Assembly: GCA_020073565.1 (NCBI GenBank)
Contig: JAIQEY010000005.1
Span: forward strand, 1 to 64,000
From: Terriglobia bacterium
Lineage (GTDB): Bacteria; Acidobacteriota; Terriglobia; Terriglobales; Acidobacteriaceae
DNA: 64,000 bases
Direction: 5' to 3'
Every line of letters begins with the position of its first letter. The first letter of the stretch is position 1. A program made the translations under genes and the position numbers. The notes under the pieces were generated by a model. It worked only from the letters and a program-made list of their open reading frames with translations, made no database searches and was not told the origin of the DNA. Of the stretch, positions 15,289-45,682 are shown piece by piece.

Positions 15289-15807
15289 ATGACCCGCCGA
15301 TTCTTCCTCGGATTGGTTTTATCGTGCACGGGAGCATTGTTCGGCCAGCAAGCTCAATACGGCAAGAGTGGGCCGGCGCTGTTGCCCGACCCGTCCGTGA
15401 CGAAGGGTGCCGTGCGCATCCGCAGCAAGGCCATAGTGTGTTCGATTAAATGGGGCAAGGACGAGCGCCACGTCACGCAGAAAATGAAAGACGCCGCCTA
15501 TGCCGCCTACGGCACTGCTCGTGGACAGGGCGTCTGTGCCTTTGCGACTCACATGGGCGAGAACGGAAAGCCTGTAACGGAAGGTTGCGAGATCGACCAT
15601 CTCATCAGCCGCGAGCTTGGCGGTGATGATAAGCTCGAAAATCTTTGGCCGCAGCCTTACACACAACCCGGCGCACACGAAAAGGATTGGCTGGAGAATC
15701 GACTGCACAAAGAGGTTTGTGCGGGAATTATTTCATTGACGGCCGCGCGGAAAGAAATCAAAGCCGACTGGTACGCGGCATACTTGAAGCGGAGACCAGG
15801 CCCCTGA
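15289..15807 (+). CDS. Exported HNH-nuclease-like protein
   Basis: A 172-residue protein with a signal peptide (MTRRFFLGLVLSCTGALFGQ) and a compact HNH-like core: EIDHLISRELGGDD (Asp103-His104) followed by NLWPQPY (Asn118) and, about 12 residues on, KDWLENRLHKEVC. The pattern DHxxxxxxGG...NLWPQ is common in small HNH-like proteins. Four cysteines (51, 83, 100 and in KEVCAG) could form disulphides. Nuclease activity is inferred, and the location would be periplasmic or extracellular. No immunity or secretion gene is adjacent. Confidence 0.6.
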   Translation: MTRRFFLGLVLSCTGALFGQQAQYGKSGPALLPDPSVTKGAVRIRSKAIVCSIKWGKDERHVTQKMKDAAYAAYGTARGQGVCAFATHMGENGKPVTEGCEIDHLISRELGGDDKLENLWPQPYTQPGAHEKDWLENRLHKEVCAGIISLTAARKEIKADWYAAYLKRRPGP

Positions 15808-15901
15808 TGCAGCACCAGCAAAGATCCGGAGAAGAGGAGTAGCAAAGCTTAGCACCATTGCTCTCCTCTTCCCGGGGTCGACGATCGATTTGAGGACAGA
15901 C

Positions 15902-24502: not shown

Positions 24503-24520
24503 ATAGTAAACGTTTACTAT
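24503..24520. promoter_or_regulatory. LacI-type operator between GH27 and the GH51 pair
   Basis: Perfect 18-bp palindrome ATAGTAAACGTTTACTAT with the central CG typical of LacI/GalR operators. It is 94 bp from the GH27 start and 138 bp from the GH51 start and can control both. It is the best member of the seven-site family in this locus. Confidence 0.8.
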
Positions 24521-24657
24521 GGCGGCCAAAACTGACTCGCTGAAACCCTCCCGGTGCGGCCCTGCGAACCATGGTTCCCGACGATGGTTTCGCCGAGGTC
24601 TTGGATTTTCGTTGCGCGGTTTTAGTTTCGTCTAGAGATTGCCAGGAGAATATCAAT

Positions 24658-26286: not shown

Positions 26287-26332
26287 GGCCGTCGAGTTCC
26301 TTCGGAATAGGATCGCGCGCGGAGGGTGATTC

Positions 26333-28015: not shown

Positions 28016-29053
28016 TTAACTCTTCCTGCCGGGTGGCCGCCGGGTGTTCCCGGAAACCAGGTGCGTCGACTCCCGAAGCACGAGATGAGTCGTGAGCACG
28101 TATTCCGTTCCCGTGGTCGAGGAGGTCTCGCGCTGCACTTCGGTCAGAAGGGCATTAAAAGCCAGGCGTGCAAGCTCGGCCTGCGACATCTGTACGGTAG
28201 TAAGCGCCGGCAAAACAAACTGGGCAAGATGGATGTCATCAAAACCGATGACCGACAAGTCCTGGGGAATGTTGATTCCATCTTCGTAACTCTTGCGCAT
28301 GACGCCAAGCGCGGTCATATCATTCGAGCACAGCACTGCGGTTGGCCTCGTGGGCAGGCTGAGCAACTGACCCAAAGCGGCGATGCCACCCTCAATGGTA
28401 TGGGTCCCTTCGACCAGGAGGTGCTTGTCGACCGGCAGACCAATTTCCTCCATGGAGCGGATAAATGCCTGCCTGCGAGCCTCTGCTGATTTCAAACGGA
28501 GGGGCCCCGAGATAAAGCCAATTTTCTGGTGACGGAGTGCTGCCAGATGTTGCACGGCTTGGCGAATGCCGTGCAGATAGTCAATACGAATGTTGCTGAC
28601 GTGGGGACCGGATAACCCGACGTCGGCGAAGACCAATGGCACTTTGCGCAACTTCAAGTCTTCGAGCAACGCCTCCTCCATGCCGAAGGTCATCACCGCA
28701 ACCCCTTCCACGCGGCGTTCGATCATTCGCCGCACGGCAGTTTCCACGCGCTTGGGATCGTTACCGGTGGAGGTCAGAAGAATTTCGTATTGGTGCTGGA
28801 CGGCGATTCTTTCGAAGACCTGGACAATTTCCGGGAAAAACGGATTGGTGATCTCGGAGATGATGAGACCAAAGATGCGACTCCTTCCCGAGACTAAAGC
28901 CCGCGCCTGAGTATTGGGATAGTAACCAAGTTCCTCGATCACATTCCAGACACGCTTGGCGAGTTGTGGCTTAACCGTGGGAACGCGGTTGATGGCACGG
29001 GAAGCGGTAGCGGTCGAAACCTTGGCCCGTTTGGCAATTTCTCGGATATCCAT
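28016..29053 (-). CDS. LacI-family transcriptional regulator of the arabinan locus
   Basis: A 345-residue LacI/GalR regulator. The N-terminal helix-turn-helix is DIREIAKRAKVSTATASRAIN and the hinge region is LGYYPNTQARALVSGRS. The periplasmic-binding-protein-like effector domain shows FGLIISEITNPFFPEI, AVLCSNDMTALGVM and LSVIGFDDIHLAQFVLPALTT. Its recognition helix residues (STATASRAIN) fit operators with a central CG, and seven such palindromes lie in front of genes within 20 kb. One is at 29148-29161 in its own upstream region, so autoregulation is likely. The inducer is probably arabinose or an arabino-oligosaccharide (inference). Confidence 0.92.
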   Translation of the reverse strand: MDIREIAKRAKVSTATASRAINRVPTVKPQLAKRVWNVIEELGYYPNTQARALVSGRSRIFGLIISEITNPFFPEIVQVFERIAVQHQYEILLTSTGNDPKRVETAVRRMIERRVEGVAVMTFGMEEALLEDLKLRKVPLVFADVGLSGPHVSNIRIDYLHGIRQAVQHLAALRHQKIGFISGPLRLKSAEARRQAFIRSMEEIGLPVDKHLLVEGTHTIEGGIAALGQLLSLPTRPTAVLCSNDMTALGVMRKSYEDGINIPQDLSVIGFDDIHLAQFVLPALTTVQMSQAELARLAFNALLTEVQRETSSTTGTEYVLTTHLVLRESTHLVSGNTRRPPGRKS

Positions 29054-29147: not shown

Positions 29148-29161
29148 AGAAAGCGCTTACC
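29148..29161. promoter_or_regulatory. LacI-type operator between lacI and the GH5-like gene
   Basis: AGAAAGCGCTTACC, matching the locus consensus AG(T/A)AAnCGnTTnC(T/C). It lies 11 bp before the GH5-like start codon, next to its ribosome-binding site AAAGGAG, and 94 bp upstream of the regulator start. Confidence 0.65.
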
Positions 29162-30325: not shown

Positions 30326-30339
30326 AGAAATCGTTTACC
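30326..30339. promoter_or_regulatory. LacI-type operator upstream of FG-GAP protein 1
   Basis: AGAAATCGTTTACC, a weaker member of the operator family. It lies 35 bp behind the GH5-like stop codon and 170 bp upstream of the FG-GAP gene, which would therefore be a separate transcription unit in the same regulon. Confidence 0.5.
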
Positions 30340-30508: not shown

Positions 30509-32521
30509 ATGCCATTGGGAAGCCGTTCCGTCCTGATTTCAATCATCACCCATGCTAGCGATTTCCGAAGAACCATAGCGAAGCCAGCGCGGGATAGCCG
30601 CGTTCAGCTGAGAGCGGCCGCGCGCTCGAGGCTGTTGTTCGCCACCGTCCTTATGGGACTTTTGGTATCGACGGTGATGGCGCGTGCCGTGGCACAGACC
30701 AACGATTCGAAAGGTGCGCAGCCGGCAACGGCGCAATCGGCAGTGTCATCCGGTGGGGTTCATGCTGCGGTACTCGATAAAGAAAATCGTCCAATCACGG
30801 CGGGGGGATTCGTCGACAGTGGCCCCATGGTATTTCAGGAGATCGCGGAAAAAGCTGGATTGGCTGGCTGGCATCACGTCATGGGTACCCACGAGAAAAC
30901 CTTCATCATAGAAACGGACGGCTCTGGCGTGGGTTTGCTCGATTACGACAATGATGGTTGGCTCGATATCTATCTTGTCAATGGCTCGACCTACGAAGCG
31001 ATGGCAGGGAAGGCGAGTCCGCCGCACGCGGCTTTGTTTCATAACAACCACGACGGTACATTTACGGATGTGGCTGCCCGAGCCGGTGTGACCAACGATC
31101 GTTGGGGGTTCGGAGTGGTGGTGGGCGACTACGACAACGACGGCTGGCCCGATCTGTACGTCACAAACTTCGGCAAGAACCGCCTCTACAACAACAATCA
31201 TGACGGTACATTCACCGACGTTGCAGAGAAGACGGGCGTTGCCCTGGGCAATTGGTCCACGGCTGCGACGTTCGGTGATTACGATGGCGACGGACGGCTC
31301 GATCTTTTTGTGGCTGGATATGTCCACTACGATCTTGCCCATCCTCCGATTCCTGGATCCGCGATGGTGGCCTTTCCGACTTGCCAGTTTCGCGGCCTCA
31401 ACGTGATGTGCGGCCCTCGAGGGTTGAAAGGCGAGCGTGACCATCTTTTTCACAACAATGGCGACGGAACTTTCAGTGATGTGAGCGACAAAGCCGGCGT
31501 GGGTGATTCGAAAGAGTACTACGGGCTCGCCGCCGTGTTCGCGGATGTCAACAACGACGGGAAGGTAGATTTGATGGTGGCTAACGACTCCTGTCCAAAC
31601 TACCTCTACCTGAATAAAGGCAACGGAACTTTTGAGGATGTCAGCTACGCCTCCGGCTATGCGCTCAACGAGAACGGCCGGGAGACAGCCTCCATGGGAA
31701 TTGCCGTCGGCGACTATTTGAACAATGGCTTTCTGGATCTCTACAACACCGACTTTTCCGACGACTACAAACCACTCTACCGTAACGACGGCGACGCCAA
31801 CTTCGACGAAGTCAGCTACCAGGCCGGCGTTGCTGAAGTGACTATCCCCTTTCTTGCCTGGGGAACGGGCTTTCTCGACTACGACAATGACGGCTGGGAG
31901 GACCTCCTGATCGCCAATGGACACGTGTATCCGGGTGTGGACACCAGCGGATGGGGGACGACCTTTGCACAACGACCGTTGCTTTTCCATAACCAGAAAA
32001 ACGGGAGGTTCGAAGTGGTTCCCGCAGTGAAAGGGACCGGATTGGCGGAACTCTTTACCGCTCGCGGAGCCGCCTTGGGAGATCTTTTCAACGATGGAAA
32101 GGTGGATGTGGTGATCAACCAGATCGACAGAAAGCCGGCGATCCTGCGGAATGTGAGCTCGGACAAGAATCACTGGCTCGGGCTGAAACTCGTTGGTGGG
32201 CCCAAGAGTCCGCGAGACGCGGTCGGGGCGGCCGTCTATATTACGGCAGGGGGACTACGTCAGCGCGTCGACGTATTTGCTGGTGGTAGCTATTCCTCAT
32301 CGAATGATCCGCGTCCGCATTTCGGTTTAGGGTCAGCCAGCATACTCGACAAAGTGGAGATCCACTGGCCTAGCGGGGCAATCGAACGAGTGGCGGTGCC
32401 GGGTGTGGATCGTTTCTATACCATCGAGGAGGGCAAGGGGGTTGTCCCCAGTGTCTACGATGAACTTAGGCAAAAACCGGCGAAACCGGCCCAGGCAATT
32501 TCCATCGGAAAAACCGAATAA
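30509..32521 (+). CDS. Exported FG-GAP repeat protein with ASPIC/UnbV domain 1 (CRTAC1-like)
   Basis: A 670-residue extracytoplasmic protein. After a basic N-terminus a hydrophobic segment (LLFATVLMGLLVSTVMA) ending about AVAQ acts as signal. Residues about 100-540 hold six or seven FG-GAP/VCBS-type repeats with calcium-binding loops: DYDNDGWLD, DYDNDGWPDLYV, DYDGDGRLDLFV, DVNNDGKVDLMV, DYLNNGFLDLY, DYDNDGWEDLLI. The C-terminal 110 residues are an ASPIC/UnbV domain (HWLGLKLVGG to VEIHWPSGAIERV). Such proteins form surface beta-propellers; a role in binding carbohydrate near the TonB receptor is inferred. The ATG at 30509 is preferred over a TTG at 30473. A TPR gene follows. Confidence 0.82.
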   Translation: MPLGSRSVLISIITHASDFRRTIAKPARDSRVQLRAAARSRLLFATVLMGLLVSTVMARAVAQTNDSKGAQPATAQSAVSSGGVHAAVLDKENRPITAGGFVDSGPMVFQEIAEKAGLAGWHHVMGTHEKTFIIETDGSGVGLLDYDNDGWLDIYLVNGSTYEAMAGKASPPHAALFHNNHDGTFTDVAARAGVTNDRWGFGVVVGDYDNDGWPDLYVTNFGKNRLYNNNHDGTFTDVAEKTGVALGNWSTAATFGDYDGDGRLDLFVAGYVHYDLAHPPIPGSAMVAFPTCQFRGLNVMCGPRGLKGERDHLFHNNGDGTFSDVSDKAGVGDSKEYYGLAAVFADVNNDGKVDLMVANDSCPNYLYLNKGNGTFEDVSYASGYALNENGRETASMGIAVGDYLNNGFLDLYNTDFSDDYKPLYRNDGDANFDEVSYQAGVAEVTIPFLAWGTGFLDYDNDGWEDLLIANGHVYPGVDTSGWGTTFAQRPLLFHNQKNGRFEVVPAVKGTGLAELFTARGAALGDLFNDGKVDVVINQIDRKPAILRNVSSDKNHWLGLKLVGGPKSPRDAVGAAVYITAGGLRQRVDVFAGGSYSSSNDPRPHFGLGSASILDKVEIHWPSGAIERVAVPGVDRFYTIEEGKGVVPSVYDELRQKPAKPAQAISIGKTE

Positions 32522-32591
32522 ACCCGCGGATTCTCACGCCTGAAGGAGCGCAGGCTGAGATGCGATATGAAAAAGCATAGCAAAGTATATG

Positions 32592-32605
32592 AGTAAGCGT
32601 TTTCT
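32592..32605. promoter_or_regulatory. LacI-type operator upstream of TPR protein 1
   Basis: AGTAAGCGTTTTCT, identical over 14 bp to the site in front of the TonB receptor gene. It lies 29 bp upstream of the -35 box of the next promoter. Confidence 0.65.
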
Positions 32606-32634
32606 AGATAGGCTCACTGCGACGCATAATTTGC

Positions 32635-32663
32635 TTGACAGTCTAGTACTTAAATACTAGATT
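32635..32663 (+). promoter_or_regulatory. Sigma-70 promoter of TPR protein 1 with an overlapping palindrome
   Basis: TTGACA (32635-32640), a 17-bp spacer and TAGATT (32658-32663) form the best housekeeping promoter in the window. The spacer and -10 box contain the palindrome TCTAGTA-CTTAAA-TACTAGA (32642-32661), a second possible operator of unknown regulator. The start codon is 22 bp downstream of the -10 box. Confidence 0.65.
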
Positions 32664-32684
32664 TTCTCCGTTTTGGAAATCAAG

Positions 32685-33869
32685 ATGCAATTCGTGTCTC
32701 TGCGCCGCGGCCCTGTGCTCGCGCTCTGCTTGATGGTTCTCCTCGCCGTCGCTTCCCTTGCGGCCCAGGAAGGACAGCTTGAGAAAACGTTTCGCTCAGG
32801 AACTGAGGCACTGCGCAACGGCCAATTGGATGAAGCGGCGGAGAACTTTTCGAAGGCGGTAGCGATGTCGCCGGCTTTTGCCCAGGCTCATTACAACCTC
32901 GGATTGGTGCGGTTCCAGCAGGGCCAGTTTGACGAAGCAATTGCCTCGCTGAACAGGAGTCTTACACTGCAGCCGCGCCTCCGCGGAGCCAACTTGTTTC
33001 TGGGCATCGCGCATTACCGGAACAACGATTTTGACAAGGCATCGATCGCATTCACCCGTGAGACTCAACTCGACCCCAAGAGTGCAGACGCGTACATGTG
33101 GCTTGGCGTGGTCCAATTGACGCAGGGCAACGCCACCGGGGCAGTGGTCAGCTTGGATAAGGCATCCGCATTGCGGCCCAAAGATCCGGACATCCTGTAC
33201 CATCGCGGCCGAGCGCACATGCTCGTCTCCATGGACACCTACGAGGAGATGTATGCGGTCGCTCCGGATTCATGGCGTGTGCACCAGGTACTTTCCCAGT
33301 CCTATGTCGAGGCGGGGCGATTGGATGAGGCGGTGACCGAGTGTCAAAAGGCAATCGCGGCAAAGCCAAAAGAAACCGGCCTGCATCAGGCGCTCGCTGA
33401 TGTTTATTTAAAGAAGAATGATCTGGCCCAGGCCGAGATCGAGTACCAGAAAGAACTCGAAATGAATCCTCGCAGCTTGGCGACCATCTACGGGTTGGCG
33501 GTGGTGAGCATCGATCGCTCGAAGCCCGAGGTTGCGGCGGAGCTATTAAGCCAGGTGTTGCAGCGGGAACCCGGTTCGGCCAATGTGCACTATCAATTGG
33601 GCAGAGCCGAAGCACAACTGGGAAACACCAACGACGCCATCCGGAATTTCTCCGCGGCGGTGTCGGAATCCGGCGAGGCGGATAGTGAGACGCTGCGCCA
33701 GTCTTACTTTCAGCTGTCGCAGTTGTATCGCCGGGCACGCAAGCCGGAGGAGTCCAAGGCTGCCTTGGATTCGTTTCTGCGGTTGAAGGAACAGGCCGAT
33801 GCCCGCGGGCAACAGAAACTTCAGGACAAACTTAAGCGCGCACCTGAGGCGCAAGAGAACGCGCCCTGA
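32685..33869 (+). CDS. Exported TPR-repeat protein 1
   Basis: A 394-residue protein with a signal peptide (MQFVSLRRGPVLALCLMVLL, cleavage about LAAQ) and about nine tetratricopeptide repeats to residue 380, for example LDEAAENFSKAVAMSPAFAQAHYNLG and AYMWLGVVQLTQGNATGAV. TPR solenoids mediate protein-protein contacts, so this is probably a periplasmic scaffold. Its place between an FG-GAP protein and a TonB receptor, with the same operator as the receptor, suggests it assembles or feeds the uptake complex; this is inference. An upstream TTG at 32673 is a less likely start. Confidence 0.82.
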   Translation: MQFVSLRRGPVLALCLMVLLAVASLAAQEGQLEKTFRSGTEALRNGQLDEAAENFSKAVAMSPAFAQAHYNLGLVRFQQGQFDEAIASLNRSLTLQPRLRGANLFLGIAHYRNNDFDKASIAFTRETQLDPKSADAYMWLGVVQLTQGNATGAVVSLDKASALRPKDPDILYHRGRAHMLVSMDTYEEMYAVAPDSWRVHQVLSQSYVEAGRLDEAVTECQKAIAAKPKETGLHQALADVYLKKNDLAQAEIEYQKELEMNPRSLATIYGLAVVSIDRSKPEVAAELLSQVLQREPGSANVHYQLGRAEAQLGNTNDAIRNFSAAVSESGEADSETLRQSYFQLSQLYRRARKPEESKAALDSFLRLKEQADARGQQKLQDKLKRAPEAQENAP

Positions 33870-33929
33870 AAGGTGGGTCATGCTTGGCTGCAACTTGGGG
33901 AGCCAAGGTCGTTTTTTTTCGGGGAGACA

Positions 33930-33943
33930 AGTAAGCGTTTTCT
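33930..33943. promoter_or_regulatory. LacI-type operator upstream of the TonB receptor
   Basis: AGTAAGCGTTTTCT, 23 bp before the receptor start codon and 10 bp before its ribosome-binding site GGAGGA. This position would block transcription or translation initiation when occupied. Confidence 0.65.
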
Positions 33944-33966
33944 CATCTGCTCGGAGGATTTGCACC

Positions 33967-36900
33967 ATGCGACACAAAAGCAAGTGGATTTGCGACCAGG
34001 TTGTTCGCATCCCTCTGGTGACCATGGCCATCGCTGTCCTGCTCACGAGCGCGTCGGGACAGTTGAACCAGGGGTCCATCGCCGGGAATATCCTTGACCC
34101 ATCCGGAGCGATGGTAGCCAGCGTCAAGGTTACGGCGAAAAACGTGGCGACCGGGGCTACCTACGAAACTCAGTCCAGCAGCGCGGGTGCCTATCGTTTC
34201 CCGAACTTGAACATTGGCACTTATGAAGTCACCGCCAGCGCACCGGGCTTCAAGACCACCCATCTGACGGGAGTCGTGGTGCAAGTCGGGACCACGAGTT
34301 CCCTCAACATCACCTTCCAAACGGGTGCGGTCAGCGAGGTGATGACGGTCATTGCGGATGCTCCCACCATCCAGACGGAATCCGCCGAGGTCGGAACCGT
34401 CGTCACCCCGAAGCAGGTGCTGGATTTGCCGCTCGCGCTGGGCAGCGTCGTGCAACCCATGCGTTCCCCGGAGGCCTTCGTTTTCCTCGCCCCGGGTGCG
34501 ATCGGGCCGGGCACGGCTTCCGGCAACGGCGGCACTTTTGAATCCAAGATCAACGGTGGACAAGCCTATTCCACTGAAGTGCTCCTCGATGGCGCAAGTA
34601 TCTACCGTTCCGAGAATGGATCGTCGTTCGACGAAACCGCGCCCTCGGTCGATGCGCTGGCCGAATTCAAGCTGACGACCTCTACCATGCCTCCAGAAAT
34701 GGGTCGTACCACCGGCGGAGTCGAAAGCTTCAGCACGAAAGCTGGGACCAACTCCTATCACGGCAGCGCGTACGATATCTTCCGCAATGAATGGTTGAAT
34801 GCCAACAGTTTTTTCGCGAATCACAACGGTTTTAAACGCTCGTTGGATCGGCAGAACGACTACGGTCTGACTTTGGGCGGCCCGGTTCAAATCCCTTATC
34901 TCTATAACGGCAAAGACAAAACTTTCTTCTTCTTCTCATGGGAGCAATATCGCCATGTAAATGGCGGGATTTCGAACATTACCGTCCCCACCGCCCTCCA
35001 ACGGACCGGTGATTTCTCTGAGACGTTGAACACCTCGAACGTTCTGGGCACCAACCCTTGCGACGATACGCCGATCTACGAAGGGGAGGTTTTTGATCCT
35101 GCTACCACAGATCCCGTTTTGCATTGTCGCACTGCTTTTATGAATGAGCCGGGGAACATTGGCAGAAATGCCTTCCCGGCAGACTACCCGCTTTCCGCTG
35201 CGGGCCAAAACATCATGGCTCTCTACCCAAACCCGCGGAATGGCAACCTGACGCAGAACTTTGCATTCCCCTGGAGCTACCCGGTCCTCGACACCACGAC
35301 GACGGTGCGCATCGACCAGAACTTGAGCACCAGTAACAAGGTGTATTTCACGTATTCTTCGCGCGAGAACCATCGCACTTCAACCACCCCGATTTTTGAC
35401 AATCCCGCCGGAGCCGGTCGAGCTCAAGTCTTCTTTACCCACTACATTCGCGGCGGATGGGACTACTCGATTACTCCGACCATGTTGAACCACTTGAGTG
35501 TTGGCTATAACCGTACCAACAGCTTGAATGTGGGCGCCGGGGTGAAGAGTGGGGTGAACTGGGCGGAACAGCTGGGCATTAGTGGCACTCCTCCGGAAAG
35601 CGGCGGTACTCCATTTCCCAACGTTGGCGTCTTTGAAGGTCCACTGACCGGCATTGGAGACGAGGTTTACGGTGACAACATTGACAATGGGATCCGCTTC
35701 AACGACAGCGTTGAACACCTCACCGGAAAGCACGACTTCAAATTCGGAGTCGATTTCCGTTACCAACAGAACTCGCCTCTGGCTTTCGGGCGAACCACGG
35801 GTCAGTACTACTTTTGGCGCCAACAGACGGCTGGGACAAATCTCACGACCGCCTTGAGCGGCAATGCGATCGCCAGTCTTCTGCTGGGACAAGTCCACGA
35901 CTCAAACCTCTACGACTACAGCGGTCAGCCGCGCTGGCTTTCGAAGTACTATGCCCTGTTCTTTCAAGACAGCTATAAGATCAGGCCCAACTTGACACTG
36001 AGCTACGGGCTGCGATGGGATGTGGATGTGCCGCGGCATGAGGCCCACGGAAATACCTCCAATGTCGACCTGACCGTTCCCAACACAGGGGCCGATGGCT
36101 TTCCGGGAGCCCTGGTTTTCGCGGGCAAAGGGGAGGGCCGCAACGGCAACACGGGTCAGCAGTGGGCCGAGACCTGGTACAAGGACTTTGGCCCCAGAGT
36201 CGGCTTTGCCTGGACGCCCGGTTTCGCTAACAATAAGACCGTGGTTCGCGGTGGTTTTGGCATCGTCTACGGGGCGCTCCTGATGGCTGACTTCGGTGGC
36301 TACAACCGGGTTGGGTTTACCTCAACTCCTGGATTTACCGCGGTCGATGGATTCAATCCGGCCTTCAACCTGGATTCCGGCTTCCCGGCGTATGCGCGCC
36401 CACCGAATCTGAGTTCCACACAGTTGAACTATCAGGGCACCCCGTTAACTTTACCTTCGTTTGGGCGTCCGGCCATGACCAACAACTGGAGCCTGGAAGT
36501 TCAGCACGAACTGGCTTCGGATCTGATCATGGATCTGGCGTACGTCGGGCAACATTCGACGCACTTGCACACCAACTTCGACTCGGTGAACTCGTTGCAT
36601 CCGGAGTTTCTCTCGCTGGGAACTTTGTTGAATGCCACGATCAGTTCTCCGGAAGCGATAGCGGCTGGTATCCACAAACCGTACCCCAGCTTTCCGGACG
36701 GCTTACTGGTGGCGCAGGCCCTGGTGCCTTACCCACAGTATTTCGGGTTCAATACCGACGGTACGTTGGAGAACTGGGGTCAATCCAGCTATAATTCGCT
36801 GCAAGCTTCTCTCCGCCGCCGCTTCCGCAACGGCTTGAACTTGCTGGCCTCGTACTCCTGGACCAAGACTCTAACCGATGCGGATGATGCGCTGCCCTTC

Positions 36901-37578
36901 TTCGCTACTCTTCATGGCGGCGGCAGTGCCCAGAATCCGTTCAACAAGCGGGGGGAGAAGGTCATCAGCAACCAGGATGTCCCCCATACCCTCGTCCTCA
37001 GCTACGTATATGAGCTTCCACTCGGAAAAGGGAAGAAGTTCCTCAACGGTGGGGGCGTGGCGGACAGAATCGTGGGAGGCTGGTCGATCAGCGGTATTCA
37101 CCGCTATCAAAGCGGTCAGCCACTCTCATTTGGAGCCAATGCGACCGGCGCACCCGCCTTTGCCGGCGCATTCCGCTTTAACCGCGTACCGGGGCAGTCC
37201 CTGTACAGTCCGCAATTCTTGAGCGGACACTTCAATCCCGTCACCGATCCTATGTTTAACGCAGCGGCCTTCACCGACCCGAACATCGCGTGTCGCACGA
37301 GTTGTTCGGCTTACGTGTTCGGTGACATGCCGCGTACCACGGGGGAAGTCCGCATGGGACACTATCTGCATGAGGACTTCGATATTTTAAAGAGGACGCG
37401 AATCGCCGAGTCTACAAGTCTTCTCTTCCGAATAAGCTTCCTCAATGCGTTCAACCGGCATGTCTTTAATCGGCCTCCCGATTTAAACCCAAACGACGGC
37501 AGTTTCGGTGTGTTAGACACAAACAATACTCTCGATCCTCCGCGGCAGATCCAGTTGCAGCTGAAGCTCGAGTTCTGA
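33967..37578 (+). CDS. TonB-dependent outer-membrane receptor with N-terminal carboxypeptidase-regulatory-like domain
   Basis: A 1203-residue Oar-like outer-membrane protein. The ATG at 33967 has GGAGGA seven bases upstream and opens a signal peptide ending about TSASGQ. Next comes a CarboxypepD_reg-like beta-sandwich (GSIAGNILDPSGAMVASVKV to about residue 110), then a TonB plug (about 120-250, VLLDGASIYRSENGSS), then a large barrel ending IQLQLKLEF with a terminal aromatic residue. This architecture is very abundant in Acidobacteriota. Situated between FG-GAP and TPR genes inside an arabinan locus and under the same operator, it probably takes up arabino-oligosaccharides. No SusD homologue is present. 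Confidence 0.88.
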   Translation: MRHKSKWICDQVVRIPLVTMAIAVLLTSASGQLNQGSIAGNILDPSGAMVASVKVTAKNVATGATYETQSSSAGAYRFPNLNIGTYEVTASAPGFKTTHLTGVVVQVGTTSSLNITFQTGAVSEVMTVIADAPTIQTESAEVGTVVTPKQVLDLPLALGSVVQPMRSPEAFVFLAPGAIGPGTASGNGGTFESKINGGQAYSTEVLLDGASIYRSENGSSFDETAPSVDALAEFKLTTSTMPPEMGRTTGGVESFSTKAGTNSYHGSAYDIFRNEWLNANSFFANHNGFKRSLDRQNDYGLTLGGPVQIPYLYNGKDKTFFFFSWEQYRHVNGGISNITVPTALQRTGDFSETLNTSNVLGTNPCDDTPIYEGEVFDPATTDPVLHCRTAFMNEPGNIGRNAFPADYPLSAAGQNIMALYPNPRNGNLTQNFAFPWSYPVLDTTTTVRIDQNLSTSNKVYFTYSSRENHRTSTTPIFDNPAGAGRAQVFFTHYIRGGWDYSITPTMLNHLSVGYNRTNSLNVGAGVKSGVNWAEQLGISGTPPESGGTPFPNVGVFEGPLTGIGDEVYGDNIDNGIRFNDSVEHLTGKHDFKFGVDFRYQQNSPLAFGRTTGQYYFWRQQTAGTNLTTALSGNAIASLLLGQVHDSNLYDYSGQPRWLSKYYALFFQDSYKIRPNLTLSYGLRWDVDVPRHEAHGNTSNVDLTVPNTGADGFPGALVFAGKGEGRNGNTGQQWAETWYKDFGPRVGFAWTPGFANNKTVVRGGFGIVYGALLMADFGGYNRVGFTSTPGFTAVDGFNPAFNLDSGFPAYARPPNLSSTQLNYQGTPLTLPSFGRPAMTNNWSLEVQHELASDLIMDLAYVGQHSTHLHTNFDSVNSLHPEFLSLGTLLNATISSPEAIAAGIHKPYPSFPDGLLVAQALVPYPQYFGFNTDGTLENWGQSSYNSLQASLRRRFRNGLNLLASYSWTKTLTDADDALPFFATLHGGGSAQNPFNKRGEKVISNQDVPHTLVLSYVYELPLGKGKKFLNGGGVADRIVGGWSISGIHRYQSGQPLSFGANATGAPAFAGAFRFNRVPGQSLYSPQFLSGHFNPVTDPMFNAAAFTDPNIACRTSCSAYVFGDMPRTTGEVRMGHYLHEDFDILKRTRIAESTSLLFRISFLNAFNRHVFNRPPDLNPNDGSFGVLDTNNTLDPPRQIQLQLKLEF

Positions 37579-37874
37579 CGGGGGACTGTCGTCCAACAAG
37601 AAGCGCCGTCGCCCGCGCGAACGGCCCTGGTATTGTTTAAGGGCCTTGAGGATTTTTCGGCGCCAGGACTGCAGGACGAGTTTCAGCAGCGTTTCAAACC
37701 TAAGCAGGGTGAGGCCTTCCCCGGGAGGCGAGACGGTATACTTGGACCAGCAGTAGCCGGGAGATCTGATTGTCTTCCATGCTCTCCAGTTGCCGAGCGG
37801 GACGCCCTGCTTGTTTGCGAATGAGCTGACGTGGGTGAACGAACGCCGCGCAACATCATGGTACCGCGTTCGTA

Positions 37875-39596
37875 ATGGGCCCAATTCGAGATCATGTCGC
37901 GTGCCTGGCAATTGTGCTGACGGCTCTGCCGTACGCTCGCGCTCAGGCCCCGCCCACAGCCAAGGAGAATCCTCCGGCAATCCATGCTGGACGATTCGTG
38001 GACGTCACCGAAAAACTGGGGATCAGGTTCAAGCACGAAGCCTCGCCCACATCCAAGAAATACCTGCTTGAGACCATGGGAGGCGGCGTTGCCCTGTTCG
38101 ACTATGACAACGACGGGCGCCTCGATGTCTTCCTGTCCAATGGCGCGCGAATTGACGGCCCCATGCCGAAGGGTGCCATGCCGCGGAAAGACGGGCCCAA
38201 GTATTGGAACCGGCTCTACCACCAGAAGCCCGACGGCACCTTCGAAGACGTGACCGAAAAAGCGGGCGTCTCGGGTGCGGGCTATTCCACGGGAGTTGCC
38301 GTGGGCGACTACGACAACGACGGATTTGAAGATCTGTTTGTGGCTGGCTATGGCCGCAGCACTCTGTATCACAACAACGGTAATGGCACGCTTACCGACG
38401 TGACCGACGTTGCCGGAGTCGCAGGTTCAGGCTGGGCGACCAGCGCCGCTTGGGTGGACTATGACAACGACGGCCTGCTGGATCTGGTTGTGGCGCGCTA
38501 TCTGGAGTGGGGATTTGAAGACATCTACTGCGGAGAGCGGCGCGAGGGGTACCGTTCGTTTTGCCATCCTGATCTGTTCAAGCCAGTTCCCATCCTCCTG
38601 TATCACAACGATGGCAGCGGCAAGTTCTCGGAAGTGTCGCACAAGGCGGGCGCCGACAAACCTGTAAAAGGACTCGGAGTGGCGGTCGCCGATTACGATC
38701 ATGACGGCTGGATCGACATTCTGGTGTCCAACGACGCGATCCCAGAGTCGCTTTTCCATAATAAGGGTGACGGCACATTTGAAGAGGTTGCCATGGTGTC
38801 GGCGCTCGCGGTGGACGGTAGCGGCGCCACCTATTCCGGGATGGGCGTGGACTTCGAAGACTACAATAACGATGGCTGGCCTGATGTGATCATCACCGAC
38901 CTCGCCAATCAGAGGTATGCGCTCTATTCGAATTTTGGCGATGGCACATTCGACTATGCAACCAATGTCACGGGGCTCGGCAGCATGACTTTGCTGCATT
39001 CCGGCTGGGGAGTACGGTTCCTGGATTTTGACAACGACGGCTGGAAGGATCTCTTGATCGTTCAGTCGCACGTGATGGATACCATCGAAGTCAATGAGCC
39101 CCATCTGCATTATCGCGAGTCGCCGCTGTTGGCCTGGAACGACAAAGGCAAGAAGTTTGTAGATGTGTCGAAGGATTCGGGAGAGGTATTCCAGCAGAAG
39201 TGGGCAGCCCGCGGGCTGGCAAGCGGCGATATTGACAATGATGGGAGGGTGGACGTTGTCGTCGCCTCGAACGACGGTCCGGCTTGGGTCTTGAAGAATG
39301 AGACCCCTGGTAACGGCCACTGGATCACGTTGAAACTGATTGGCGTCAAAAGCAACCGCGACGGGATTGGCGCTCAAGTCGAGATATTGACCGATTCCGG
39401 CCGGCAGTATGCGACCGTAAGTACAGCAGGAAGTTACCAGTCATCGAGTGATCGACGCGTGCACTTCGGATTGGGGTCGGCCGCAGCCGTAAAGTCGATT
39501 CGCGTGCGCTGGCCTAGCGGGATTGTACAGACCCTTGAGGGCGTGAAGGCGGATCAGATTCTCTCTGTCAGGGAGACGGTACCATCCACCCAATAG
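37875..39596 (+). CDS. Exported FG-GAP repeat protein with ASPIC/UnbV domain 2 (CRTAC1-like)
   Basis: A 573-residue homologue of the FG-GAP protein at 30.5 kb. A signal peptide (CLAIVLTALPYARAQ) is followed by repeats with DYDNDGRLDVFL, DYDNDGFEDLFVAGY, DYDNDGLLDLVVARY, DYDHDGWIDILV, DYNNDGWPDVII and DFDNDGWKDLLIVQ, and a C-terminal ASPIC/UnbV domain (HWITLKLIGVKSNRDGIGAQ to IRVRWPSGIVQTLEGV). It is shorter at both ends than protein 1. No clear LacI operator lies in the 296-bp gap before it; it may be read from the receptor promoter. A second TPR gene follows 13 bp downstream, repeating the FG-GAP/TPR order. Confidence 0.82.
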   Translation: MGPIRDHVACLAIVLTALPYARAQAPPTAKENPPAIHAGRFVDVTEKLGIRFKHEASPTSKKYLLETMGGGVALFDYDNDGRLDVFLSNGARIDGPMPKGAMPRKDGPKYWNRLYHQKPDGTFEDVTEKAGVSGAGYSTGVAVGDYDNDGFEDLFVAGYGRSTLYHNNGNGTLTDVTDVAGVAGSGWATSAAWVDYDNDGLLDLVVARYLEWGFEDIYCGERREGYRSFCHPDLFKPVPILLYHNDGSGKFSEVSHKAGADKPVKGLGVAVADYDHDGWIDILVSNDAIPESLFHNKGDGTFEEVAMVSALAVDGSGATYSGMGVDFEDYNNDGWPDVIITDLANQRYALYSNFGDGTFDYATNVTGLGSMTLLHSGWGVRFLDFDNDGWKDLLIVQSHVMDTIEVNEPHLHYRESPLLAWNDKGKKFVDVSKDSGEVFQQKWAARGLASGDIDNDGRVDVVVASNDGPAWVLKNETPGNGHWITLKLIGVKSNRDGIGAQVEILTDSGRQYATVSTAGSYQSSSDRRVHFGLGSAAAVKSIRVRWPSGIVQTLEGVKADQILSVRETVPSTQ

Positions 39597-39609
39597 CAGA
39601 CCGAAGCCT

Positions 39610-40863
39610 ATGAGTTACAGATCTCTGCGTGCGATCGCGGTGTTGTTTCTTCCCATGACCACACGGAAAGTTCAAACTGCTTTTTTTGTTGGTGCACTGA
39701 TGACCCTGTGCGGCATTCGAGCTGCGGCACAATTCCCAGAGGGAAACTTTTCCCTTATCCAGGATGCAGCGAAGGCCATCGTAGCGGGAGACCTGGGGAG
39801 GGCCGAAACTGAGCTTCAAGTCGTACTCGGCAGAAGTCCTGGGGATTACCGCGCATCGAATCTGCTGGGCGTGATTCGCGCTCAGCAACACCGCGAGCCG
39901 GAAGCAGAGAAACTCTTCAAACAGGTGATCGAGCAAAAGCCGGATTTCGCCGGCGCTCACGTAAATCTCGGCATGCTCTATGCGCAAATGGAGCGTGACG
40001 ATGAGGCTGTGGCGCAGTTCCGTGAGGCTCTGCGACTCGATCCACAGCGAACCGATGCGCTCTCCGCTCTGGTGAACGTATTGCGCGCCCAGGCACGAGC
40101 AGCGGTCAAGGCTGGAAATCTGGAGAAGGGCTTGGCTCTGCTTCTTCAGGCTCGAAAAGATAGTCCCCAGGATGCAGACGTCCTTTTTGAGTTCGGGATG
40201 ATCGCGCTGCAGATGTCATTGCTGCCAGATGCGATCCAGGCGTTTCAGGACGAATTGGCTGTGCGGAAGGATGATCCGGACACCCTCTACGCGCTCGGAC
40301 GTGCGCAGATCGGAATGGCTCAATACCAAGAGGCAAGGACATCCTTTGAGCGCTTCCTGCAGATTCGGCCCGAGGACGCCAGCGGCCAATACGCGCTGGG
40401 CGTGGTCCTGCAGTCGCTCCAGCAGGCTTCAGAGGCGCGCCTGCACTTCGAGAAATCGGTTGCACTCCAGCCTGTGCAGACCGAGTCCTACTTCCAACTT
40501 GGGTTGATCGATCTTGATGAGAAACACCTGGACACTGCTCTGAATCAGTTCAACCGCGTTCTGAAGCGAGATCCGAAACATGCAGGGGCTCTGTTCGGGA
40601 CGGGACGCGTCGCGTTCGAAAGACGAGAGTACCAAAATGCTGCGAACCTTTTCGAGCGTGCGATCGCAGCGGACGCGTCATTGCGGCAGGCGCACTATTA
40701 CTTAGGCCTCGCGTACGCTCGGCTGGGACGGAAGGACGATTCCGAAAAAGAATTGCAGGCCGCCAGCCAGCTTGAACATCAGGAAGTCGAGAAACACAGG
40801 GTTGTGCTGAAAATATTAAATTCGGACAACGCTCCTCCAGCGAACGCGGACCCGGCAAAGTAG
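39610..40863 (+). CDS. Exported TPR-repeat protein 2
   Basis: A 417-residue protein with an N-terminal hydrophobic export segment (TAFFVGALMTLCGIRAAAQ) and about ten tetratricopeptide repeats through residue 390, such as AGAHVNLGMLYAQMERDDEAVAQF and TLYALGRAQIGMAQYQEARTSF. It follows the second FG-GAP gene after 13 bp, so the two are surely co-transcribed. A periplasmic scaffold role with the neighbouring surface proteins is inferred. It ends 16 bp before the convergent GH43 gene. Confidence 0.82.
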   Translation: MSYRSLRAIAVLFLPMTTRKVQTAFFVGALMTLCGIRAAAQFPEGNFSLIQDAAKAIVAGDLGRAETELQVVLGRSPGDYRASNLLGVIRAQQHREPEAEKLFKQVIEQKPDFAGAHVNLGMLYAQMERDDEAVAQFREALRLDPQRTDALSALVNVLRAQARAAVKAGNLEKGLALLLQARKDSPQDADVLFEFGMIALQMSLLPDAIQAFQDELAVRKDDPDTLYALGRAQIGMAQYQEARTSFERFLQIRPEDASGQYALGVVLQSLQQASEARLHFEKSVALQPVQTESYFQLGLIDLDEKHLDTALNQFNRVLKRDPKHAGALFGTGRVAFERREYQNAANLFERAIAADASLRQAHYYLGLAYARLGRKDDSEKELQAASQLEHQEVEKHRVVLKILNSDNAPPANADPAK

Positions 40864-40879: not shown

Positions 40880-41956
40880 TTACTTGGTGACATTGGCTGG
40901 AACATCTTCGAGCGCCGCGTGTGGCCAGCCATCGGTCCACTGCAGCGACGAGATCTGTAGTGATGCTTCACCCGTTTTCGCGTCGTAGGCGTGAAAAACC
41001 ATGATGTCCCCGTTTGCCTGCAGAAGAACAGATTCTCCTCCAGGCCCGAGCCATCGTCGGTTCCCCACAAGCAGTGGAGTGGCTCCACCTTCCAGCATAG
41101 GCTTCCCATCCGCATCCACATATGGTCCGGTCACGTTCTGCGAGCGGCCCACCATGGTTTTGTAATTGCTTTTCGTGCCGCGGCAGCACAGATCGAACGA
41201 AACAAACAGGTAGTAATACTGGCCGTGATGAACAATAAAAGGCGCTTCGATGGCTTGCCAATCTCCAGGCAAACCCGGGGGCGGCGCCGTCGGACTGTCA
41301 GGACGCTTGCGCCGCGCTAGTGAATAGATAGTTGCGTCCTCTGCAGACAGCAAGCCCGTTTTGGGGTCGATCCGCCGCATCTTGATGCCGCTCCAGAAGC
41401 TGCCGAAGCTTAGCCACGCGTGCCCCGCGCCGTCGAAAACGAGATTGGGGTCTATCGCATTAAAATCGTCCTCGGCGCGGGAACGCAAGACGAGCCCGCG
41501 GTCCACCCAATGAAAGTTTGGGCTGGTCGGATCCAAACTCTTGTTCGTAAGCAGCACGATGCCTGAGGTGTTCTTGCCGAACAGGGAGAACGCATAGTAC
41601 AGGTGATATTCCCCGCCAAAATAAGAGATGTCTGGCGCCCAGAGTTCTTTCGTCCCTGGACTTTCCTTCCTGATCCACTCCGGAATACTCGCTAGTACGT
41701 ACCCGCAGTGTTTCCAGTGCTGCAAATCTCCAGAGCAATGAATGGGAAGTTCACCCTTTCGGTCGGGGCCGTTAGCCGTGCTGAACACATACCATGTGTC
41801 GTTTTCTTTGATAATCGACGGGTCATGAACAAACTTGACATCGCCTTCGACTGTGAGGGCGTGGGAAGGTTGGGTCGCGGAAGTCTGTCCGCCTGCCAAA
41901 CCAGTGGTAAACGTCAGTGCCAGTGTAACTTGTATGGTCGCTAGTATGAGTTTCAT
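40880..41956 (-). CDS. Exported GH43 endo-1,5-alpha-L-arabinanase or arabinosidase
   Basis: A 358-residue GH43 five-bladed propeller enzyme with a signal peptide ending about GLAGGQ. The GH43 triad is visible: general base Asp45 in KFVHDPSII, pKa modulator Asp169 in FNAIDPNLV, and general acid Glu237 in QAIEAPFIV. KELWAPDISYFGGEYHLYYA is typical of the extracellular endo-arabinanase group. It cuts the alpha-1,5 arabinan backbone or liberates arabinobiose outside the cytoplasm. It follows the GH127-like gene after 12 bp, forming an operon under the operator at 43894. Confidence 0.9.
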   Translation of the reverse strand: MKLILATIQVTLALTFTTGLAGGQTSATQPSHALTVEGDVKFVHDPSIIKENDTWYVFSTANGPDRKGELPIHCSGDLQHWKHCGYVLASIPEWIRKESPGTKELWAPDISYFGGEYHLYYAFSLFGKNTSGIVLLTNKSLDPTSPNFHWVDRGLVLRSRAEDDFNAIDPNLVFDGAGHAWLSFGSFWSGIKMRRIDPKTGLLSAEDATIYSLARRKRPDSPTAPPPGLPGDWQAIEAPFIVHHGQYYYLFVSFDLCCRGTKSNYKTMVGRSQNVTGPYVDADGKPMLEGGATPLLVGNRRWLGPGGESVLLQANGDIMVFHAYDAKTGEASLQISSLQWTDGWPHAALEDVPANVTK

Positions 41957-41968
41957 GCGAGCCCCTGT

Positions 41969-43819
41969 CTAAGTCTCTACTTTGTGGTAGAGACGATATG
42001 TTTCATCACCCAGCGCTGAAAAGGGACGCAGGGTCAAAGAGCGGTGATCGCTCTCAACCACCCAGTCTTGCGAAGATTGAGAAGCGGCCGTTGCCGCGAG
42101 CAGTTGGGCTCGAGTCAGCTTGGCGGGGATATCGCCGACCGCGAAGAGCGCTAGAGGGCCGCGCACCAACGCCACTGTATTGGGGTTCTGCGCATCGACT
42201 GCTTCAACCCGCAGCGGCATTCCGATCTCAAACTCTACTCGGTCACCCGCCTTCCAGGTTCGGCTCAGCGCGAGAAACTTTCCAGGCACGACCTCGCCTT
42301 CCATGCGCTTCCCATTGATGGATACACGAGATTTTGCATCCGCCCAGGCTGGGATTCTCAGATGAACAGTGAAATTCTCCGGACGCGTCAGATCGAAGCG
42401 AAGGTCGGTAGTGCTGGAAGTGGGATAACTGGTTTGCTGGGTGATCGTGCACTGAGTTTTGTCTTGCGACCAACTAACCCGTGAAGGAATGAACAAGTTG
42501 ACATAGACACCATCTGCGCTCCGATAGTACGTACTAATACCGTAATCGGCAGTCAATTGGGGGAAGGTTCCGGAGCAGCACGGCCACTTTTCTTTGTAAT
42601 AAACTTTTCTCCCGCTACCGCTGTTGTAATCCGAATAGTAGAAGGTTGTGCCGTCGGCAAGAATTGGTTTGGCGCCGGCGATCGTGTTGTAGAGTATCCG
42701 CTCCATGCTGTCGCCGTAGCGAGAATCGCGTGTTACCCGCAGCAAATACCGGGTGATCTTGAAATGGCCATAGGCGCCGCAGGGTGTTTCGAAGCTGGAA
42801 TGTGTGTTATTCAGGCTGGCCGCCAACAATCCCTTCCCGGGTTCCACGAATCCTTCGTTTGGGCCCCACCCACCAGTCGCATAACTCTGTTCGTGCACCA
42901 TGCGCAAGCCGTTGGCAGCGGCCCGAAGGTAGTGTTCGTCCCCCAAAACCAAATATGCCTGCATGGCTGAACTCAGTGCGTTCACATGGCTGTATGCGTG
43001 TTTGCCAGGCAACGCGTTGTGGTTCTCTGCCAGCGCGTCGTAGTACTCGTGGTAGATGAAACGTTTAGCCAGTTCGAGATAGCGTTCGTCCCGGCTCCGG
43101 CGGTACGCCAGAAATAGATTCTCGGGCAGAGTGTAAGTTTCATCCCAAGTGAAAGCGACGTTTTTGTGCGGACGAGCCTCCTGTTCGGCACGGCTTAAGG
43201 CCTTTTCTGGCAAGTGCGGAAGCACAGCATCGGTGCTGCGTTTGAGTAATTCCAGAGCATTCGGATCAGCGGCAAATTCGTGGGCATCGATCAGACCACA
43301 ACAGGTCTTGTCGAAGGTGTAACCCGGCAGCCGGTAATCTCTGTAGAACTTTCCCGTCGGCTCTATGGTCTCGGCGTAAGCCCGCACCAGGCGATGTATC
43401 TTTCGCTGTGTGAGCTCTGAGCCAGTGACCGCATAAGCTCTCGCCAGGCCGGACATATATTGCCCGAAACTATGGCCGGGAATGAAGCCGTGGAAGTTGT
43501 CTGCGGGATTGAAATCATCACTGTTGTCATACCAGCCGCCGAGGTCTGGGCCTGGAGCGGGCATCCCCTGACGCTGCCGAAACGGCTTCAACAGGCCATC
43601 CTCATCAATGTTCAAGAGGACTTTGTGATTGTTCTCAAACTGCTGGCGTAAGATGCCATCGAGCAGTTGCACTTGCGAATACTCAAACACCGAGAGAGGA
43701 GGCACCACCTCCCCTTCAGCATTCGGAAGCGCCCATGAGGGTAGGGAACGTGCCGCTAGAGTCCCGCTTGCAGCGATCGCCGCGGTTGTTAGAAATTGCC
43801 GCCTGGATGTGGTTGTCAT
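41969..43819 (-). CDS. Tat-exported GH127-like beta-L-arabinofuranosidase (DUF1680)
   Basis: A 616-residue protein of the DUF1680/GH127-GH146 group. The ATG at 43819 opens a twin-arginine signal (TSRRQFLTTAAIAASGTL). The (alpha/alpha)6 barrel contains YVNLF and LILYNT-like segments and the conserved Cys pair in EKWPCCSGTF, one of which is the known nucleophile in HypBA1. The other metal ligands come from an ExC motif; here the sequence is SSFETPCGAYGHFK, so the glutamate is one residue further from the cysteine than usual. GH127 enzymes remove beta-L-arabinofuranose. First gene of a two-gene operon with GH43. Confidence 0.85.
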   Translation of the reverse strand: MTTTSRRQFLTTAAIAASGTLAARSLPSWALPNAEGEVVPPLSVFEYSQVQLLDGILRQQFENNHKVLLNIDEDGLLKPFRQRQGMPAPGPDLGGWYDNSDDFNPADNFHGFIPGHSFGQYMSGLARAYAVTGSELTQRKIHRLVRAYAETIEPTGKFYRDYRLPGYTFDKTCCGLIDAHEFAADPNALELLKRSTDAVLPHLPEKALSRAEQEARPHKNVAFTWDETYTLPENLFLAYRRSRDERYLELAKRFIYHEYYDALAENHNALPGKHAYSHVNALSSAMQAYLVLGDEHYLRAAANGLRMVHEQSYATGGWGPNEGFVEPGKGLLAASLNNTHSSFETPCGAYGHFKITRYLLRVTRDSRYGDSMERILYNTIAGAKPILADGTTFYYSDYNSGSGRKVYYKEKWPCCSGTFPQLTADYGISTYYRSADGVYVNLFIPSRVSWSQDKTQCTITQQTSYPTSSTTDLRFDLTRPENFTVHLRIPAWADAKSRVSINGKRMEGEVVPGKFLALSRTWKAGDRVEFEIGMPLRVEAVDAQNPNTVALVRGPLALFAVGDIPAKLTRAQLLAATAASQSSQDWVVESDHRSLTLRPFSALGDETYRLYHKVET

Positions 43820-43893
43820 GGCAAACCTGAGTCTCGAGTGGAGCACATTGTCCCACGTCAGGGGTGGTAAGAAATCGTGCTTGCAGCATTGAT

Positions 43894-43907
43894 GGAAAAC
43901 GCTTGCT
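43894..43907. promoter_or_regulatory. LacI-type operator upstream of the GH127-GH43 operon
   Basis: GGAAAACGCTTGCT, matching the locus consensus except at the first base, 75 bp upstream of the GH127-like start codon. Confidence 0.55.
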
Positions 43908-44003: not shown

Positions 44004-44035
44004 TATAATAACCCGGACTAAAGTAAACGTTTGCT
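44004..44035. promoter_or_regulatory. -10 box and LacI-type operator upstream of araA
   Basis: TATAAT (44004-44009) is followed 12 bp later by AGTAAACGTTTGCT (44022-44035), so the operator covers the expected transcription start, a classical repression position. No good -35 hexamer is seen. The araA start is 77 bp downstream. Confidence 0.7.
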
Positions 44036-45615: not shown

Positions 45616-45682
45616 GGTCCCAAACCAGCCGGCGAAATCCTGAAGACTAAGCTGCGGCGCAAGTTCAAGAGTGGGGAGGCCG

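Follow-up and report, generated by a model that had tools for sequence, protein, structure and literature searches.

A TonB-dependent receptor, exported TPR proteins, and paired FG-GAP/ASPIC propellers in an acidobacterial L-arabinan locus: one copy of a candidate SusD-free nutrient-acquisition cassette

The window analysed here, the first 64,000 nucleotides of contig JAIQEY010000005.1 (C110 in our numbering) of a Terriglobia bacterium (assembly GCA_020073565.1), contains five consecutive genes for an FG-GAP/ASPIC propeller (ASPIC1), a tetratricopeptide repeat (TPR) protein (TPR1), a TonB-dependent receptor (TBDT), a second propeller (ASPIC2), and a second TPR protein (TPR2). These kinds of gene lie together repeatedly, the two propellers belong to clades that tend to occur as pairs, this copy carries operator-like sites, and SusD is lacking. 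The recurrence of the module, its enrichment in TPR and regulator genes, the operator-like sites, and the presence of all five orthologues in two related loci support the view that the parts form a unit and contribute to nutrient acquisition. The module as a whole probably functions in uptake, with substrate capture by the propellers as our best guess. We give an even chance to a fuller proposal: an outer-membrane nutrient-acquisition cassette of Acidobacteriota, modular and in most cases under LacI-type control, of which the five genes would be one copy and in which the propellers capture or present the substrate and the TPR proteins dock them. Acidobacteriota are abundant in soil, and the passage of large substrates through their outer membrane without SusD is poorly known.

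The five-gene order had been proposed in an earlier sequence-only reading of this DNA, and all five open reading frames (ORFs) are present on the plus strand with the domains that it assigned (Table 1). On the basis of Pfam matches, the first and fourth genes encode FG-GAP_3 repeats followed by a UnbV_ASPIC domain (66 and 84 bits against a cut-off of 23.4), the second and fifth encode TPR arrays, and the third combines CarboxypepD_reg with OMP_b-brl_4, the latter at 627 bits. We call the receptor Oar-like; the NCBIfam scan gave it no SusC-type name, and a sequence search with it against solved structures returned no match at E 0.01. Its translation start is most likely the downstream one because an operator-like site falls within the longer ORF, and ASPIC1 may start at either a TTG (30473) or an ATG (30509). 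The same reading took all five proteins to be exported; their N-termini do appear so, as judged by eye only.

To place the set in its genome, we located the 17 ASPIC genes and the 46 merged OMP_b-brl_4 genes or pieces of the assembly. A TBDT is found within 5 kb of 10 ASPIC genes (1.5 expected) and within 8 kb of 11 (2.2 expected), some TBDT pieces in this count being fragments; by cluster, the numbers are 7 of 11 and 8 of 11, the cluster test having used an ad hoc factor of 1.3. The eight clusters within 8 kb are called modules below, and they were compared with 29 control regions around TBDTs of the same genome, defined by the absence of an ASPIC-domain gene. A TPR gene is found in all eight modules (Pfam-checked in seven, and in L025 by a home-made profile only) versus about 8 of the 29 controls within 7 kb (P = 3e-4, Fisher); it stands within two genes of the TBDT in 6 of 8 modules versus 4 of 29 controls (P = 0.002). 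A regulator with a LacI-type sensor domain is present in 6 of 8 modules versus 1 of 29 controls (P = 8e-5). Because the home-made TPR profiles missed some TPR genes, the controls were rescanned with Pfam over 227 genes within 7 kb of the control TBDTs. A subset of 95 genes, comprising most neighbours within two genes of a TBDT and leaving aside 18 genes of more than 700 residues and two at ends, contained 4 TPR proteins, and the remaining 132 genes, those 20 included, contained at least 2 plus 2. The figure of 8 of 29 assumes one TPR protein per region, draws on tallies of the 25 commonest families, and may err either way; with 11 of 29 in its place the enrichment gives P = 0.003. Since glycoside hydrolases (GH42, GH3, and GH77) are among the control neighbours, the control regions do contain sugar genes. 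In a tree of 38 TBDTs from the genome, the ASPIC-linked receptors did not form a single clade, although three of them (window, L021, and L028) group together, and the association is therefore not one inherited block.

One module, L026 (G000:C45:24001-44000), encodes a 1317-residue TPR-ASPIC fusion (5313-9266) and a TPR protein that begins with a CarboxypepD_reg domain (11787-13439), which sit among nucleoside hydrolases and a TBDT. Three tandem ASPIC genes, the middle one with TPR-like repeats, occur at L018 (G000:C98:24001-44000, 9430-16839), where the nearest TBDT on the contig is more than 100 kb away. L121 (G000:C74:30417-47326, 6866-13184) has a TBDT, a LacI-type regulator, and a TPR-like gene (by the first home-made profile only) with no ASPIC gene, and is perhaps a reduced module. 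At L115 (G000:C69:40415-57051, 12190-15255), a 1021-residue VCBS/FG-GAP protein adjoining a TBDT was matched by a whole-protein ASPIC profile; the genome scan with PF07593 found no ASPIC domain in it, and the region was counted as a control.

The LacI-type palindrome AGWAARCGYTTWCT was found at seven sites in the 64 kb at up to 2 mismatches, versus 1.2 expected, and none of 100 shuffles reached seven; the pattern was built after some sites had been read, so the shuffle test is not independent and the count is not blind. ASPIC1, TPR1, and TBDT are each preceded by their own site, as are the first GH51-type gene and araA. That part of the set shares an operator with the enzymes had been suggested from the sequence alone, and the seven candidate sites strengthen this suggestion. 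Sites with at most 1 mismatch were also found in the related locus L082, ahead of its TBDT (6016) and at the beginning of a GH43 ORF (15105); L033 and the nine other loci scanned showed none at this threshold.

Conservation was assessed in 80 named loci, the best of 586 ranked by similarity to ASPIC2 irrespective of their TBDT or TPR content; 79 were taken as Acidobacteriota and L104 is labelled Betaproteobacteria, and genes in unannotated loci were called with our own script. The exact order (string A-R-T-A-R) was seen in only 1 of the 80, which rules it out as a diagnostic feature, and gene order within the kit varies widely. The check that the sequence-only reading had proposed, a search for the five-gene order near other acidobacterial TonB receptors, did not bear out the order but did reveal the kit: among the 59 loci of at least 13 kb, a TBDT is present in 44, a TPR gene in 47, and both in 40. 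TBDT density per 100 kb is 8.6-9.6 at 0-2.5 kb from an ASPIC gene and 0.85-0.9 at 7.5-10 kb (79 loci, L076 being left out for want of a called ASPIC gene). All five orthologues occur in L082, their order unchanged apart from an additional TPR gene (75, 54, 61, 75, and 53% identity), flanked by GH51, GH43, and 29173-like genes and a further GH43 gene, and in L033 with the ASPIC2-TPR2 half inverted (76, 53, 58, 65, and 35%). On plasmids of cultured strains, Granulicella tundricola carries genes for CRTAC1 (the usual annotation of this family), TPR, and a TonB-type receptor beside GH28, GH30, and GH88 on pACIX902 and, in the order TBDT-TPR-CRTAC1-CRTAC1, beside trehalase and alpha-glucosidase on pACIX901 of strain MP5ACTX9; in Acidisarcina polymorpha pACPOL3 the kit stands beside GH172 and fucP, its receptor being annotated as a carboxypeptidase-like regulatory domain protein. 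The sequence-only reading knew of no described system of this kind. No TBDT-TPR-ASPIC arrangement appeared among the titles and abstract starts listed in the literature survey, a scope outside which subscription papers and preprints lay, and no paper on VCBS together with SusD was found in the open full-text literature. ASPIC and UnbV are named together in 5 papers of that literature, among them PMC3174227, which places both families in tables of paralogues.

ASPIC1 and ASPIC2 are 39% identical and fall into separate clades, alpha and beta, which we delimited on a tree rooted at its midpoint and weak in its deep nodes; the beta clade takes in 84 of 121 sequences when drawn widely and 31 when drawn strictly. 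Among 33 ASPIC pairs within 9 kb, 20 are alpha plus beta versus 11 expected (3 of 20,000 permutations, which treat loci as independent); the rest are 7 beta pairs, 2 alpha pairs, and 4 with unassigned sequences. Alpha and beta distances also correlate (Mantel r 0.42, 18 of 5000). The excess of mixed pairs and the correlated distances suggest that the two propellers are a working pair rather than the outcome of mere duplication. These data also bear on the idea of a neighbourhood effect, by which expanded ASPIC, TPR, and TBDT families would accumulate in the same adaptive islands without joint function. All three families are multi-copy, their order is widely variable, and about 8 of the 29 control regions likewise have a TPR protein within 7 kb, all of which speaks for such an effect; we nevertheless regard it as very unlikely, given that TPR and regulator genes are enriched relative to other TBDT regions of this genome, that the clades pair with correlated distances, that TPR-ASPIC fusions exist, and that TBDT density decays over 10 kb.

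The absence of SusD from the window, claimed earlier, extends to the whole assembly (0 matches to PF07980). On the five set proteins, PF07980 was not among the matches listed, which for the two TPR proteins were the best 25 of 26-27 families. In a sample of 60 Acidobacteriota genomes, including this one, SusD was found in 1, at L146 (G045:C60, 3810-8560), a 9.5 kb contig that bears genes resembling those for SusC and SusD, has no ASPIC, and is possibly contamination. The lack of SusD and the adjacency of ASPIC genes to TBDTs could be explained if the FG-GAP/ASPIC protein were a surface lid replacing SusD on the receptor, as first proposed. In Hymenobacter volaticus (Bacteroidota), however, the order is LacI on the opposite strand, a beta-L-arabinofuranosidase-type gene, a TonB receptor, SusD, and a VCBS/ASPIC protein whose in-frame upstream sequence reads as a lipoprotein signal, and plasmid 2 of Gemmatirosa kalamazoonensis (Gemmatimonadota; L144, NZ_CP007130.1 856000-885000, 1475-21277) has LacI-like (by eye), SusC, SusD, ASPIC lipoprotein, a second ASPIC-profile ORF, SusC, and SusD. 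Because the ASPIC lipoprotein follows an intact SusC-SusD pair in both, it stands there beside SusD and not in its place, an argument by analogy from proteins only distantly related to the acidobacterial clades; Spirosoma, a third locus from those phyla, has ASPIC without SusC or SusD. Replacement of SusD is further weakened by the rarity of a lipobox in acidobacterial ASPIC proteins (4 of 136, a heuristic count) and by residues that are invariant across modules with different neighbours (below). The ASPIC protein is probably no SusD stand-in, and we consider the lid model quite unlikely. If any acidobacterial part does take the place of SusD, a likelier one would be the TPR gene that in 17 of the 80 loci comes immediately after the TBDT in the same orientation, because SusD is itself built on a TPR core (excerpt of PMC2954216). 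The AlphaFold model of TPR1 is a plain TPR solenoid (pLDDT 88.5, pTM 0.55), the SusD fold being a TPR core with a subdomain rich in loops; SusD is not among the 50 structural matches listed for TPR1, which excludes nothing.

Signal types were assigned by regular expressions on our own gene starts. The N-termini of 136 acidobacterial ASPIC proteins were Sec-like in 91, Tat-like in 24 (a count that includes false positives), with a lipobox in 4 and unclassified in 17; those of 32 TPR proteins were Sec-like in 27 and unclassified in 5. An earlier version of the expressions had flagged ASPIC1 of the window as Tat, probably falsely, and no lipobox was seen by eye in its two ASPIC and two TPR proteins. 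These signals may fit a periplasmic, surface-attached, or secreted location of both protein types. In one alternative, the Oar-like TBDT would be an export channel with folded ASPIC and TPR proteins as cargo, as Oar secretes PopC by a TonB-dependent route in Myxococcus xanthus (excerpt of PMC11658791). The CarboxypepD_reg plus OMP_b-brl_4 build of the receptor speaks for this model. Oar presumably shares that build. The 29 control regions, ASPIC-free by definition, mostly lack TPR genes, so this receptor type needs no such cargo; moreover, sugar-sensing regulators and catabolic genes fit uptake better, and the TBDT shares its operator-like site with catabolic genes. We hold secretion to be the least probable of the alternatives.

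The main rival is an enzymatic role, in which the propellers would be exported enzymes that depend on a metal (a dehydratase, a lyase, or the like) and convert sugars or oxidised products, leaving uptake to the TBDT alone. The ASPIC2 model (pLDDT 93) consists of a propeller and an ASPIC domain and has the fold of murine CRTAC1 (PDB 9etn; Z 42.8, root-mean-square deviation 2.2, 456 residues aligned). Next come LGI1 (Z about 31) and aldos-2-ulose dehydratase, a sugar enzyme from fungi (Z 28.8 over 358 aligned residues), which together with Psathyrella velutina lectin (PVL)-type lectins falls in the VCBS propeller group according to excerpts of PMC8023676. Seven residues (E66, M323, R446, Y209, C219, C230, and P232) are 92-100% conserved in each of three groups with different neighbours; in the model, E66, M323, and R446 are found where strands preceding DxDxDG loops begin, or immediately ahead of them. 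Such conservation would suit a catalytic site, and the Tat-like motif of about 24 of the 136 ASPIC proteins would agree with a protein that folds around its metal and is then exported. Against these points, many unrelated propellers reach Z 25-28 in the same match list, identity to aldos-2-ulose dehydratase is 12-13%, the Tat count is a regular-expression result with false positives, and a single activity common to nucleoside, arabinan, and glucan loci is hard to imagine. We therefore rate an enzymatic role as unlikely, though less so than the other alternatives. That these residues stay constant while the neighbours of the modules change points to a shared function and speaks against their forming a substrate-specific site. 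Two GW dipeptides (G186-W187 and G377-W378) lie at the entry of a strand that precedes a DxDxDG loop and for that reason should be an inner one; PVL and tachylectin-2 have a GW in the loop leading to this inner strand, where it helps to form the sugar pocket (excerpt of PMC8023676).

We assign the window locus to L-arabinan because the neighbours of the set are of GH27, GH51 (two), GH43, and GH127 type with L-arabinose isomerase and aldose epimerase; the co-location of these genes agrees with the earlier placement of the set inside a glycan locus. The gene sequence runs GH27-type, two GH51-type, LacI, the gene at 29173, the five genes, GH43, GH127, L-arabinose isomerase, and aldose epimerase. 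The description of a glycan machine is too narrow for the other modules, however. Module C52 adjoins alpha-amylase, trehalase, and sugar transporters; C6, GH3 and GH16; the first of C23, GH3, GH39, and PF10091; the second of C23, GH5, GH3, and a mandelate-racemase-type enzyme; C45, three nucleoside hydrolases; and two more stand beside non-glycan enzymes, namely a thiamine-diphosphate enzyme with three proteins lacking a Pfam match (C64) and a corrinoid-activation protein (C19). Because the neighbours differ in this way (arabinan, alpha-glucan/trehalose, beta-glucosides, nucleosides, and others), the kit seems to serve nutrient acquisition in general.

Several observations weigh against a common cassette. 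Six of the 17 ASPIC genes have no TBDT within 8 kb, 30 of the 80 named loci have none (some through shortness of the locus), and TPR genes also occur near control TBDTs. No TonB receptor is listed beside the CRTAC1 and TPR genes in the stretch of Acidisarcina pACPOL4, and no receptor, SusD, or TPR beside CRTAC1 in that of the Spirosoma oryzicola plasmid. Relatives in Streptomyces and the archaeon Halocatena mean that the ASPIC family is not bound to an outer membrane. E66, M323, R446, and others are invariant despite the differing catabolic neighbours. A palindrome scan of five other modules gave no recurring operator, and a common operator for them was dropped; this evidence is weak, as the thresholds were strict and grouped only 2 of the 7 window sites. 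Finally, the assembly (6.1 Mb, 123 contigs, completeness 99.97) has a contamination estimate of 6.02, or about 6%.

On balance, we favour a cassette that combines an Oar-like TBDT with exported TPR proteins and calcium-loop FG-GAP/ASPIC propellers, one or two of each, the propellers often being alpha plus beta. The window copy would serve L-arabinan, with the TBDT importing arabino-oligosaccharides. The alpha and beta propellers would act jointly in the envelope, capturing or presenting substrate at the transporter, an accessory role that may also fall to the ASPIC lipoproteins next to SusC-SusD in Bacteroidota and Gemmatimonadota. Docking of the propellers, whether to one another or to the TBDT, would be the task of the TPR solenoids, which may occupy the position of the TPR-based SusD. 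Compared with the sequence-only reading, the linkage is stronger than could then be known, the mechanism is less proven, and the scope is broader. The most far-reaching version, a phylum-wide SusD-free uptake machine in which an Oar-like receptor works with a heteromeric alpha/beta ASPIC pair held by exported TPR solenoids and is adapted to arabinan, glucans, nucleosides, or other nutrients by swaps of receptor and regulator, is one to which we give somewhat less than an even chance; if true, it gives bacterial CRTAC1-like proteins a function. Several genomic signals now link the ASPIC/UnbV family, of unknown function in bacteria, with TonB receptors and with exported TPR proteins. The finding predicts a heteromeric propeller pair and offers the family a testable role, and cultured strains carry the kit.

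Table 1. The five-gene set, neighbouring genes, and operator-like sites, by position in the window.
Feature	Position	Strand	Description
ASPIC1 (alpha clade)	30509..32521	+	FG-GAP_3/VCBS propeller, exported-looking, UnbV_ASPIC domain at the C-terminus; TTG at 30473 as other possible start
TPR1	32673..33869	+	exported-looking, built of tetratricopeptide repeats
TBDT	33967..37578	+	TonB-dependent receptor, CarboxypepD_reg + OMP_b-brl_4; start most likely, longest ORF from 33799
ASPIC2 (beta clade)	37875..39596	+	exported-looking FG-GAP/VCBS propeller, seven DxDxDG-type loops, UnbV_ASPIC domain
TPR2	39610..40863	+	exported-looking tetratricopeptide repeat protein
Two alpha-L-arabinofuranosidase (GH51-type) genes	24571..28000 (24571-26286, 26333-28000)	+	
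LacI-family regulator	28016..29053	-	candidate owner of operator sites
GH43 and GH127 beta-L-arabinofuranosidase	40880..43846 (40880-41956, 41969-43846)	-	
L-arabinose isomerase and aldose 1-epimerase	44113..46804	+	
Operator-like site	24505..24518		AGTAAACGTTTACT, perfect palindrome, upstream of first GH51-type gene
Operator-like site	29148..29161		1 mismatch, between LacI gene and gene at 29173
Operator-like site	30326..30339		2 mismatches, upstream of ASPIC1
Operator-like site	32592..32605		upstream of TPR1
Operator-like site	33930..33943		upstream of TBDT; 14-mer identical to 32592 site
Operator-like site	43894..43907		2 mismatches, divergent GH127/araA intergenic region
Operator-like site	44022..44035		1 mismatch, upstream of L-arabinose isomerase (araA)

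Between the LacI gene and the set, positions 29173-30291 encode an exported-looking 372-residue protein that resembles a GH5-type enzyme by eye; it had no Pfam or NCBIfam match at E 0.001. A relative with 71% identity occupies the same place in L082 (1609-2739).

The set can be compared with several known systems. The CRTAC1/ASPIC-UnbV family has the calcium-loop propeller plus ASPIC domain seen in ASPIC2, but in a profile alignment CRTAC1 has R and T opposite M323 and R446, which are (nearly) invariant among the bacterial sequences. ASPIC2 belongs to the VCBS propeller supercluster together with Psathyrella velutina lectin, tachylectin-2, and aldos-2-ulose dehydratase, and its two GW dipeptides are counterparts of the GW in the two lectins; it differs by the extra ASPIC domain, and any ligand is putative. 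Oar-PopC of Myxococcus xanthus is presumably alike in receptor architecture and differs in the direction of transport; that system is not known to have catabolic genes or TPR/ASPIC partners. Like the set with its neighbours, a Sus-like polysaccharide utilization locus unites a TonB-dependent receptor, glycoside hydrolases, a sugar-sensing regulator (for which the LacI-family protein is the candidate here), and accessory exported proteins, but here SusD is lacking, the receptor matches OMP_b-brl_4, the accessory proteins are soluble-looking propellers and TPR solenoids in contrast to surface lipoproteins, and the same kit also occurs outside glycan loci. The SusC-SusD-ASPIC loci of Hymenobacter volaticus and Gemmatirosa share the LacI-type gene, the TonB receptor, and the FG-GAP/ASPIC protein, with GH127-type genes nearby in Hymenobacter; they differ in that SusD is present and the ASPIC protein is a lipoprotein of a distant branch.

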